The notes beneath the pieces are model-generated. The model did not search any database. It worked only from the letters and a program-made list of their open reading frames with translations, and had not been told where the DNA came from. Made by a program: the position numbers and the translations under genes. From positions 124,001-188,000 of the forward strand of contig NZ_BMFY01000002.1 of assembly GCF_014639315.1 (NCBI RefSeq): a stretch of 64,000 nt of DNA, read 5' to 3'. The DNA comes from Sediminivirga luteola (GTDB lineage Bacteria > Actinomycetota > Actinomycetes > Actinomycetales > Brevibacteriaceae). Below, one piece after another: positions 17,302 to 60,700 of the stretch (the stretch's first letter is position 1; every line of letters begins with the position of its first letter).

Positions 17302-17691
17302 GCTCACTCCTCAATGTCAGTGGCACTGTACTGCCACACTATCGCGGCGGGTATCCACCGCACAGAGCGGCCCCGGCCCGCCGGCACGGTGAGAACCGGT
17401 GAGAACCGGTGAGCGGGAACGCGCATGCCGGAGGATGGGCGCCGGCACCGCAGACATGGACGTCTGGCGGGCACACACCACTGCGGTTCCGGAATCCCAC
17501 CCCTTATGAGCAGCGGGAATCCATGGGCAGGGGATCTTGGAACCGCGACGGGATTCCTGCGCGGCAGTCACCCCAGACACGCGCCGTGGATGTTCCCGTG
17601 GCCGGACCGCCGCGGCCGGCAGAGCCACCGCGGCGTCGCTGCGTTCACCGTGGCGGGCGGAACCGTCGCAGCGGCAGCGATGCGCTCCCGT

Positions 17692-31905: not shown

Positions 31906-31948
31906 TCCCGCTCAACGTCCCGCCGATCCTCGCGCCTCATGCGACTCC

Positions 31949-32000
31949 CGCATCTCATCCGATTCCCGCATCTCATCCGATTCCCGCATCTCATCCGGAA
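31949..32000. repeat. 18-bp tandem repeat upstream of the thiamine-precursor binding protein
   Basis: CGCATCTCATCCGATTCC is repeated at 31949, 31967 and 31985 (the third copy diverges at its last bases into the GGAAGG ribosome site). It occupies the gap between the permease and binding-protein genes. Confidence 0.8.
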
Positions 32001-58837: not shown

Positions 58838-60088
58838 TCAGAACCTCGCCGGGTCGAACGGCCGCAGCGCGTCAGGCATAGCCCCTTCGCGCATGAACTC
58901 CGAGAGCGCTTCGGCCGAGGCGGGACCGAGCGTCACGCCGAGCATGCTGTGACCGCTCGTGACGAAGGCGTTGGACAGCCCGCCCAGGCGCCCGATGACC
59001 GGCAGCCCGTCCGGCGTCATCGGCCGCAGCCCGGCCGCCGGTGCCGGCGCCGTGGCAGGAGGCGTCCAGTCGCGAAAGTACCGGCCCGGCGCCCGCAGCA
59101 CCGCCTCGGAACGCACCGGGCTGAAGTTCTCGTCGAGGCCGCCGAACTCCATCGTCCCGGCCAGCCGCAGCCGCTCGCGGAACGGTGTCACGGCGACTTT
59201 GGCGTCCCCGAGGTAGGTCGCGCCGCGCAGCGGCAGCGGATCCGTCTGAAGCATGTAGCCCTTGCCCGGGCGGACCGGAAGGCGCACGCCGAACTCCCTG
59301 GCCAGCACGCCGGTGTGCGCGCCGGCCGCCAGGACCACCGTCTCCGCGCGCAGGCTCGTTCCGCCGGCGGCGCCGGTGGCGTCAGCGGTGTGGACGGCGG
59401 TCACCCGGTCGCCGCGGACATCGGCGCCGGTGACGCGGCAGCCGGTGAGCATCCGCACTCCGCGGGCGGCGACGGCGGAGCGCAGCGCCCGCATGAGCGC
59501 ACCCGGGTCCAGGTGCCGTTCGTGCGGGAAGTAGACGCCCCCGGCGACGGCATCGCTCAGCAGGGGCTCGTGCATCCGGACCTCGTCGCCGCGAAGCACG
59601 CGAGGTTCCAGGCCGGCGGCCTCGAAGACGTCCCGGTAGGCCAGCTGTTCTTCCAGATGCGCGGGATCGGTGAACGTCAGCAGCAGACCAGCGGCATGCA
59701 TCTCGAACTCCATGCCCTGCTTCCGGTACTCGTCGAACGCGGCCATGGAGGCACCCATGAGGCCGAGGTGCGCCTCCAGGCCCAGGCGCTGCGCGTGGGC
59801 GGTGCTGTGCCGCCACATGTGGAGCATGAACCGCAGGAACTCCGGCTCCACCGAGGGCCTGATGTAGAGCGGCCTGTCCGGACGCAGCATCCAGCCCAGA
59901 GCCTGCCGCACCGCACCGGGGCCGGGCACCGGCACGGACAGCGCCGGGACGATCCATCCGGCGTTCACCTCGCTCGCGCCACCGGGCGCATGCCGGGCAT
60001 CGACGACCGTCACCTCGCGGCCCTCGCGCGTCAGCCGTTCGGCGAGCATGAGGCCGATGAGGCCGCCGCCGACGATGACCGTGCTCAT
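58838..60088 (-). CDS. FAD-dependent D-amino-acid dehydrogenase/oxidase (DadA-like)
   Basis: A 416-residue FAD oxidoreductase of the DAO superfamily. The dinucleotide-binding motif VGGGLIGLMLAERL is at 5-18 with the acidic ADP-ribose contact in VVDARH. C-terminal RPMTPDGLPVIGRL and SGHSMLGVTLGPAS blocks match DadA. It oxidises the C-N bond of a D-amino acid or N-methyl amino acid. The in-frame ATG at 60088 is the third of three tandem ATGAGCACG copies. It follows the SDR gene and converges on the LacI gene. Confidence 0.9.
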   Translation of the reverse strand: MSTVIVGGGLIGLMLAERLTREGREVTVVDARHAPGGASEVNAGWIVPALSVPVPGPGAVRQALGWMLRPDRPLYIRPSVEPEFLRFMLHMWRHSTAHAQRLGLEAHLGLMGASMAAFDEYRKQGMEFEMHAAGLLLTFTDPAHLEEQLAYRDVFEAAGLEPRVLRGDEVRMHEPLLSDAVAGGVYFPHERHLDPGALMRALRSAVAARGVRMLTGCRVTGADVRGDRVTAVHTADATGAAGGTSLRAETVVLAAGAHTGVLAREFGVRLPVRPGKGYMLQTDPLPLRGATYLGDAKVAVTPFRERLRLAGTMEFGGLDENFSPVRSEAVLRAPGRYFRDWTPPATAPAPAAGLRPMTPDGLPVIGRLGGLSNAFVTSGHSMLGVTLGPASAEALSEFMREGAMPDALRPFDPARF

Positions 60089-60112
60089 TCCGTGCTCATT
60101 CCGTGCTCATTC
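60080..60112 (-). repeat. Triplicated 11-bp stop-start junction
   Basis: CGTGCTCATTC is repeated three times in tandem (60080, 60091, 60102); read on the minus strand this is GAATGAGCACG. Each copy holds ATGA. The first ATG overlaps the SDR stop; the first two open tiny frames (Met-Ser-Thr-Glu) whose TGA overlaps the next ATG; only the third, at 60088, is in frame with the DadA-like gene. Confidence 0.9.
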
Positions 60113-60700
60113 CACGGCGAAGATCTGGCCGGTCTCCACGCCCTCGACGGAACGGACATACGCTGCGCCGACCGCGTCGTCCCCGGCCGGGAGGAAACCG
60201 GGGAAGGCCTCGTGGTAGTGCGGCGAGTTCGCCAGCACGGTGGGGCTCACGGCATTGATGCGGATGCCCCGCGGCAGCTCCGTGGCCGCGGCGCGCACGA
60301 ACGACTCGACGGCGCCGTTGGCCAGGGCGGCGGCTGCGCCGGTGGCGATCTGCGCCCGGCCGATGATGCCGCTCGTCAGGGTGATGGATCCGTGATCGGC
60401 CAGCCGTGCCAGACCGCGCTGGACGACCTCGAGCTGGCCGAGGACCTTGCTGCCCAGCGCCGCCTCGTAGTCGGCGCGGCGCAGCTCGGCGAGCGGCTTG
60501 AACGGCACCGAGCCGGCAGCGACCACGAGCGCGTCGATCTGCCCGATGTCGTCAAGGGCGCGCTCAATGGTCCCCGGCTCACCCAGATCGACGGCTGGTT
60601 CGGTACTGCGGGAGAGCCCGATCACCTCATGTCTGCCGTTCAGTGCCGCCGCTGCCACTCGTCCGACGTTGCCGCCGGCACCCACGAGCACGATCCGCAT
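60107..60700 (-). CDS. Short SDR-fold protein lacking the catalytic Tyr/Lys
   Basis: A 197-residue Rossmann protein with an NAD(P) motif VGAGGNVGR at the N-terminus, NAG-like AAGSVPF and SGIIGRA in the serine position. Where SDR enzymes have YxxxK, this one reads GAAAALANGAVE, so both catalytic residues are absent. Similar short SDR homologues without the tyrosine are known, of undefined function. GAGGAGG precedes the ATG. It is translationally chained to the DadA-like gene. Confidence 0.8.
   Translation of the reverse strand: MRIVLVGAGGNVGRVAAAALNGRHEVIGLSRSTEPAVDLGEPGTIERALDDIGQIDALVVAAGSVPFKPLAELRRADYEAALGSKVLGQLEVVQRGLARLADHGSITLTSGIIGRAQIATGAAAALANGAVESFVRAAATELPRGIRINAVSPTVLANSPHYHEAFPGFLPAGDDAVGAAYVRSVEGVETGQIFAVE

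Follow-up and report, generated by a model that had tools for sequence, protein, structure and literature searches.

The genes for a short-chain dehydrogenase (SDR) and a DadA-like FAD oxidoreductase of Sediminivirga luteola are joined by a perfect tandem array of an 11-bp unit that carries the stop-start motif ATGA, such that each of the three motifs closes one reading frame and opens the next (Table 1). We consider it rather likely that this array is a slippage-made expansion of ordinary translational coupling, and that it is probably translated as a relay. Its origin is probably ordinary (slippage), its outcome unusual, and arrays of this kind recur across the class; adaptive tuning through them is unproven.

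Table 1. Features of the SDR-DadA-like junction (positions in the window)
Feature	Position	Strand	Details
Short-chain dehydrogenase (SDR), 197 aa, upstream gene	60107..60700	minus	NF005754/PRK07578 above cut-off; stop TGA1 60109-60107
DadA-like FAD oxidoreductase, 416 aa, downstream gene	58838..60088	minus	DAO, PF01266
Perfect 11-bp tandem array, unit GAATGAGCACG	60079..60113, 35 bp	minus	Period 11, 3.2 copies, 100% matches, TRF score 70
Mini-frame 1, ATG AGC ACG GAA TGA (MSTE*)	60096..60110	minus	ATG1 (60110) in ATGA overlap with SDR stop
Mini-frame 2, ATG AGC ACG GAA TGA (MSTE*)	60085..60099	minus	ATG2 (60099) within ATGA closing mini-frame 1
Gap from SDR stop to DadA-like start, 18 nt	60089..60106	minus	SDR frame open past TGA1

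The initial annotation had described a triplicated stop-start unit in which the SDR stop overlaps the first ATG, two Met-Ser-Thr-Glu frames each end in a TGA overlapping the next ATG, and the third ATG starts the DadA-like protein, and all of these elements are borne out. The window (the whole stretch of 64,000 nucleotides that was analysed) contains three head-to-tail occurrences of GAATGAGCACG on the minus strand (60080-60112), embedded in a run of perfect periodicity. The SDR gene ends on this strand with GCC GTG GAA TGA, and ATGA is present at the contact of its stop with ATG1, between the two mini-frames and at ATG3 (60088), the DadA-like start, which lies within the ATGA that closes mini-frame 2. 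Each mini-frame is 15 nt long and makes a -4 contact with the next start, and the SDR and oxidase genes themselves are 18 nt apart. As a tandem repeat, the array is not a product of chance; an assembly artefact is less likely as its source, given that 35 bp is presumably far below the usual read length. No RNA family, promoter or terminator was detected near the junction at the thresholds applied.

The SDR gene very probably does end at TGA1 and the DadA-like gene begin at ATG3, judging from the alignment of homologue stops and starts and from the fact that ATG3 is the sole start codon of the DadA-like frame downstream of the SDR stop. Alignments of SDR homologues extend to query residues 193-197, with the homologues stopping there or close behind, and in most of the oxidase homologues listed the start codon is aligned with ATG3, just ahead of the Rossmann motif. 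The top NCBIfam match of the DadA-like protein is the D-amino acid dehydrogenase model, below the cut-off. An SDR homologue is found near the oxidase gene, mostly in a non-adjacent position, in 19 of the 29 loci from the family (L003-L031, short flanks) and in 10 of the 36 loci of another oxidase homologue set; among the loci listed, Piscicoccus (L064) is the only relative in which the two genes abut, with a single GTGA overlap. Among the homologue loci listed, none besides that of S. luteola has the 11-bp repeat at the oxidase start. At the Piscicoccus locus, a proline racemase-like gene precedes the SDR gene and a dihydrodipicolinate synthase-like gene follows the oxidase gene; at another locus (L005), a GntR-like regulator is encoded between the SDR and DadA-like genes, and a dihydrodipicolinate synthase-like gene lies beside the latter (all names assigned by eye). 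These neighbours suggest a hydroxyproline-type catabolic cluster.

The consequences of duplicating a stop-start overlap were followed in a simulation in which blocks of 5-40 bp containing the overlap were duplicated at 22 other single-overlap junctions of the genome. Here, as in the chain counts and junction calls given below, genes were called with a home-made heuristic based on frame length and GC3, not with a gene finder. The downstream protein was unaltered in all 15,444 simulated duplications: when the whole ATGA is duplicated, the first TGA still ends the upstream frame and the last ATG still opens the downstream one. The fate of the first start depends on the block length. With blocks of 3n+2, it runs exactly into the next overlapping TGA and a relay results (4,841 of 4,884 cases); with 3n, it becomes an N-terminal extension (4,888 of 5,148), and with 3n+1, it reads into the second gene out of frame (5,223 of 5,412). 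The unit of 11 bp is of the 3n+2 type, so that a chain of mini-frames forms. Frame-based on/off switching by copy change was not found, the downstream frame being intact in every simulated duplication, and the same follows from the local sequence. The rule that duplication of an overlap is safe for the proteins, and that 3n+2 blocks yield a relay, predicts sites where length changes would accumulate harmlessly.

Some statements of the initial annotation have to be refined in the light of this rule. A unit length that is not a multiple of three, to which the preservation of the two genes had been attributed, is necessary but insufficient, the true condition being 3n+2. Slips had been thought to change which ATG follows the SDR stop; the overlap is always with ATG1, and a change in copy number lengthens or shortens the relay and moves the last ATG farther off or closer. 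The claim that slips never fuse the genes holds insofar as duplications leave both proteins intact, but with three copies ATG3 is in the SDR frame with TGA1 alone intervening (frame 0 reads FAVE*ARNEHGMSTV), and UGA readthrough at the SDR stop would then produce an SDR-oxidase fusion. That the array serves such readthrough is extremely unlikely: the arrangement is valid only at copy numbers 3n, no readthrough signal is known here, and no fused SDR-oxidase homologue was noticed among the homologue loci listed.

The frequency of comparable structures was estimated in 464 kb of the same genome (the window and 20 sampled stretches) and in 400 kb from two members of the family. Among the 387 genes called in the genome sample, 59 are linked by a stop-start overlap to a downstream called gene, 52 of these directly, six via one mini-frame and one, the SDR-DadA-like pair, via two. 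The family sample contains 33 direct junctions, five with one mini-frame and one with two, the last without a tandem repeat, and a looser frame criterion yields five three-start chains in the combined 864 kb, the SDR-DadA-like chain among them. Exact arrays with a period of at least 5 and some three copies or more number seven in the genome sample and eight in the family sample; the SDR-DadA-like array is the only one of the seven found among the stop-start chains into called genes. Thus, tandem arrays are commonplace and short relays do occur; what is odd is a relay built from a perfect tandem array, of which there is only one in the 464 kb and 400 kb sampled. When the two-unit 24-mer was searched with up to three mismatches, this locus was the only match in its own genome, and the 60 family genomes, with S. 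luteola as the sole representative of its genus, gave one three-mismatch match, in one other genome; the genome-wide search rules out that the two-unit stretch is a dispersed repeat unit.

Several other arrays of the genome were noted along the way. A second ATGA array, also perfect and three-copy (G000:C7:192340-192365, L155), runs antisense to a frame of 557 aa whose GC3 is high, and marks no junction. Within the window, an 18-bp array at 31946-31997 has 2.9 exact copies (3.4 copies at 31936-31997 according to TRF) and lies on the plus strand, where it separates a frame resembling a transporter permease from the one that follows and is in frame with an N-terminal extension of the latter. A 10-bp array, CGGTGAGAAC, at 17387-17413 (2.7 copies, 100% match) is apparently intergenic, and its GTGA motifs are absent from the stop-start links into called genes.

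We propose that the ancestral junction was an ordinary 4-nt ATGA overlap between the SDR gene and the DadA-like gene, which replication slippage, probably between GG dinucleotides 11 bp apart, would have duplicated twice. With a block that includes the complete ATGA and has a 3n+2 length, neither protein would have been damaged, and each extra copy would have added a 4-codon frame with its stop overlapping the following start. On completing the SDR, ribosomes would then probably reinitiate at ATG1, translate MSTE and proceed through ATG2 to ATG3, and the DadA-like output would stay coupled to that of the SDR. Since each relay step should cost something, the ratio of oxidase to SDR is most likely lower than with one overlap.

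Published work on reinitiation bears on this scheme. No other spacing of co-directed prokaryotic genes is reported to be nearly as common as the 4-nt overlap, and in E. coli and Haloferax reporters reinitiation drops by roughly 40-80% when 13-14 nt separate the genes and is nearly abolished at ~20 nt (PMC10666635). The last 15 nt of the upstream gene suffice for reinitiation (PMC10666635), so that the 15-nt mini-frames could bridge the 18-nt gap. By analogy with these reporters, passage through the relay appears plausible, and direct passage over 18 nt is probably poor. The Shine-Dalgarno signals fit less well. Removal of this motif in E. coli cut reinitiation by 60-90% or fully in four of the five pairs described (PMC6728339). 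The pairing computed with the 16S tail is -1.5 kcal/mol at ATG1, -4.8 at ATG2 and -5.0 at ATG3, whereas 22 other overlap-linked starts have a median of -8.1. As 37% of random 17-mers match the pairing at ATG2, ATG2 and ATG3 are at chance level and ATG1 is below it. The weak pairing that ATG2 and ATG3 gain from the repeat is thus no ground for claiming that the repeat creates a Shine-Dalgarno sequence, and the motif that commonly, if not universally, precedes the downstream start of -4 pairs is not clearly present here. The reinitiation chain suggested in the initial annotation therefore draws support from the geometry, from the distance dependence (PMC10666635) and from the expansions and the conserved relay found elsewhere (see below), but is weakened by the poor Shine-Dalgarno pairing.

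These same data bear on a neutral interpretation, to which we give somewhat less than an even chance: the expansion by slippage may be an unselected passenger, with post-termination ribosomes or new 30S subunits reaching ATG3 directly and the mini-frames hardly translated. The genome stretches sampled contain an exact array of some three copies or more every 66 kb or so, duplication of an overlap spares both proteins, relays with one non-repeated mini-frame exist at six of the 59 linked junctions, and among the best-scoring comparators most relatives of the expanded junctions have a single copy. Moreover, a gap of 15 nt proved no obstacle to one E. coli pair, and studies of long-range reinitiation are cited in the same source (PMC10666635). 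Nevertheless, the 18-nt gap falls within the range of poor direct reinitiation for most of the pairs described there (PMC10666635), and independent initiation would have no clear Shine-Dalgarno motif to draw on. Continuity of the relay may also matter at least at the DUF3046-MFS junction, where the relay is unbroken in four of four species despite divergent mini-frames.

Comparable arrays recur across the class. The pattern ATGA-N7-ATGA-N7-ATGA was found in 127 of the 394 class genomes and its reversed control in 34 (hand count), a ratio that is indicative only, as 39 of the 127 genomes belong to one genus with a single conserved site and the control differs in dinucleotides. At least 24 loci with perfect period-11 ATGA arrays are present among the matches listed (hand count, with the SDR-DadA-like locus included), and 22 others were fetched, the array of G281 contig 113, at a contig end, being left out. 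Eight of the 22 (L156, L160, L162, L164, L167, L168, L169 and L174) are located at junctions of two coding-like frames, as judged by frame length and GC3; at L156, L160 and L162, at least one further, non-identical link stands between the perfect array and the gene. Six of the eight have Pfam matches above the cut-off on both sides, namely AP-endonuclease-like/TetR, DUF3046/MFS, Rieske/VanA_C to FMO-like, LMW phosphatase/fructosamine kinase, sulfatase/sulfatase-modifying enzyme and HATPase/Roadblock; the upstream side of L168 has a YkuD match below the cut-off only, and that of L160 has no match. The remaining 14 arrays are antisense to long frames, intergenic or feed one frame only. L175, with two long frames, was rejected as a junction because it did not pass on GC3 and no Pfam family matched.

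Across all ATGA sites, 2.8-3.1% qualify as junctions, and at an assumed share of 3.5% the enrichment to eight of 22 is significant (P = 5e-7). The expected share would be far higher if arrays were confined to non-coding sequence, and at an assumed share of 25%, with arrays tolerated only outside coding sequence, P is 0.16, so that the enrichment alone is no proof of selection. The period-8 pattern occurs in 56 of the 394 genomes; of 14 such arrays fetched, 12 are perfect, and none is at a junction by the strict criterion. The four imperfect period-11 arrays that were fetched, all copies of a conserved leader, are likewise away from junctions.

The contrast between perfect period-8 arrays, with their 3-codon frames (0 of 12 at junctions), and perfect period-11 arrays (8 of 22; Fisher P = 0.03) rests on small numbers, and would be expected if tiny frames were inhibitory minigenes that damp the DadA-like gene through peptidyl-tRNA drop-off or ribosome loss. 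Very short frames can indeed be toxic or regulatory, but the minigene under study in the same source raised downstream translation, and two-codon frames and UAA stops are cited as the more toxic, which would make 4-codon UGA frames mild (PMC8708949). We therefore view damping by such minigenes as unlikely.

Orthologous junctions provide a view of how the arrays arise. Comparisons covered the best-scoring loci, 30 of the 116 matching genomes for LMW phosphatase-fructosamine kinase, 30 of 118 for HATPase-Roadblock and 15 of 15 for Rieske-FMO. The first junction has four starts in one species, and among its 29 congeners (best of 116), 22 have one start at -4, one has two starts, four start elsewhere and two are without a detectable partner. 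At the HATPase-Roadblock junction, there are three starts in one species, and its 29 congeners (best of 118) include 15 with one start and 14 that start elsewhere, although single-link calls below ~85% identity may reflect fortuitously open frames; 10 of the 11 nearest congeners (89-96% identity) among the best of 118 have one start. Rieske-FMO has three starts compared to one in the sole relative, out of 14, in which both genes were found. Because the comparators mostly have a plain single overlap, the arrays at these three junctions are lineage-specific expansions of an ordinary overlap. For sulfatase-FGE, the seven other loci offered no usable junction with both orthologues.

The DUF3046-MFS junction of genus g64 (L278, L279, L280 and L281) is organized differently, with unbroken relays in all four species, of four, three, two and two starts. 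The mini-frames are three of 4 codons, two of 4 codons, one of 10 codons and one of 10 codons, respectively; the two 10-codon relays are perhaps shared by descent, and the MFS frame of one is cut by the contig end. That continuity is kept while sequence and number change is the best hint of selection in the data set.

Given that the number of starts differs between orthologues (1, 2 and 4 at LMW phosphatase-fructosamine kinase among the best of 116, and 2, 2, 3 and 4 at DUF3046-MFS) and that a unit so short and free of mismatches may be unstable, slippage might act as a contingency switch that varies the relay steps and so tunes the enzyme ratio within a population, in line with the tuning by copy number suggested in the initial annotation. 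This is quite improbable in our estimate: the differences are between species and none is within one, three copies are short for a mutable array, and selection for switching would require a phenotype of which none is known. Variation or tuning of copy number at the SDR-DadA-like locus itself is not supported.

An expanded overlap that is probably translated as a relay has partial counterparts among known systems. Coupled pairs with a -4 nt ATGA or GTGA contact have the same 4-nt stop/start overlap, at which ribosomes are expected to arrive from the upstream gene (PMC6728339, PMC10666635, PMC12548453); here, three such overlaps follow one another in tandem, two 4-codon frames lie between the genes and there is no clear Shine-Dalgarno motif. 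The closest precedent, nearest in logic, is the mycobacterial MIRUs, in which a short frame is inserted at a start codon with -4 coupling (PMC12548453); the repeat frame has the same -4 coupling here. Between senX3 and regX3, two BCG strains carry the 77-bp MIRU repeat in two and three tandem copies, respectively (PMC9392950). MIRUs exceed the present unit in length, are found at numerous sites and are apparently mobile, whereas the unit described here is 11 bp long and seemingly made from the local junction; as the two-unit stretch is not dispersed either, identity with a MIRU was rejected. The mg2 minigene of axe-txe is likewise a tiny frame just upstream of a gene whose translation it changes, but it is a two-codon frame 15 nt from the gene rather than a set of tandem frames overlapping stop to start (PMC8708949). 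The TAACTGA direct repeats of Beggiatoaceae are short, tandem and near start codons, with a proposed translational role, but are a fixed heptamer at many genome sites and, in the available text, are not described as a stop-start relay (PMC4679880). Work on leaders and minigenes, as far as the accessible parts of the sources go, concerns single or few short frames and not tandem overlaps (PMC4833913, PMC8708949). Our literature searches, which do not prove absence from print, found no tandem stop-start arrays as such, and the literature surveyed contained no treatment of the mutability of 4-nt overlaps.

A broader proposal, speculative and rather unlikely to hold, is that stop-start arrays are a recurring actinobacterial route to evolving coupling strength, in which each 4-codon step would shift the product ratio. 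If so, operon stoichiometry could be tuned rapidly at the ATGA overlap, an inherent site of change at which slippage gives a 3n+2 relay and harms neither protein, and fixed relays, such as that of DUF3046-MFS and an infB-like leader of one large genus, would be selected outcomes. Orthologous junctions with one to four steps would offer a natural series for the survival of reinitiation per step, which bears on the open point between local and 70S-scanning models.

The leader array was observed in genus g58, with genomes of 5.8-11 Mb. At L177:1531-1573 and equivalent positions of L178, L179 and L180, a near-identical array, ATGAGCACTCG-ATGAG(C/T)ACGCG-ATGAGTACGCC, forms two MSTR* frames in relay that are followed by a third short frame ending in TAG. 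It lies ~40 nt ahead of a gene whose product begins with MAKVRVYELAKEFGV, a protein start that we take to be IF2-like; the match to the IF-2 model is weak and below the cut-off, the locus being cut, and the array is probably an infB leader. Placed in front of the gene for an initiation factor, such a relay could serve as a sensor of the capacity for initiation. There was no Rfam match for this leader, and an infB-leader relay was not found in the literature search, a result that leaves room for a published description. The motif is present in all 39 genomes of the genus that were searched (hand count), and among four aligned copies the 33-nt array varies at a single base, whereas the sequence more than ~35 nt upstream diverges.
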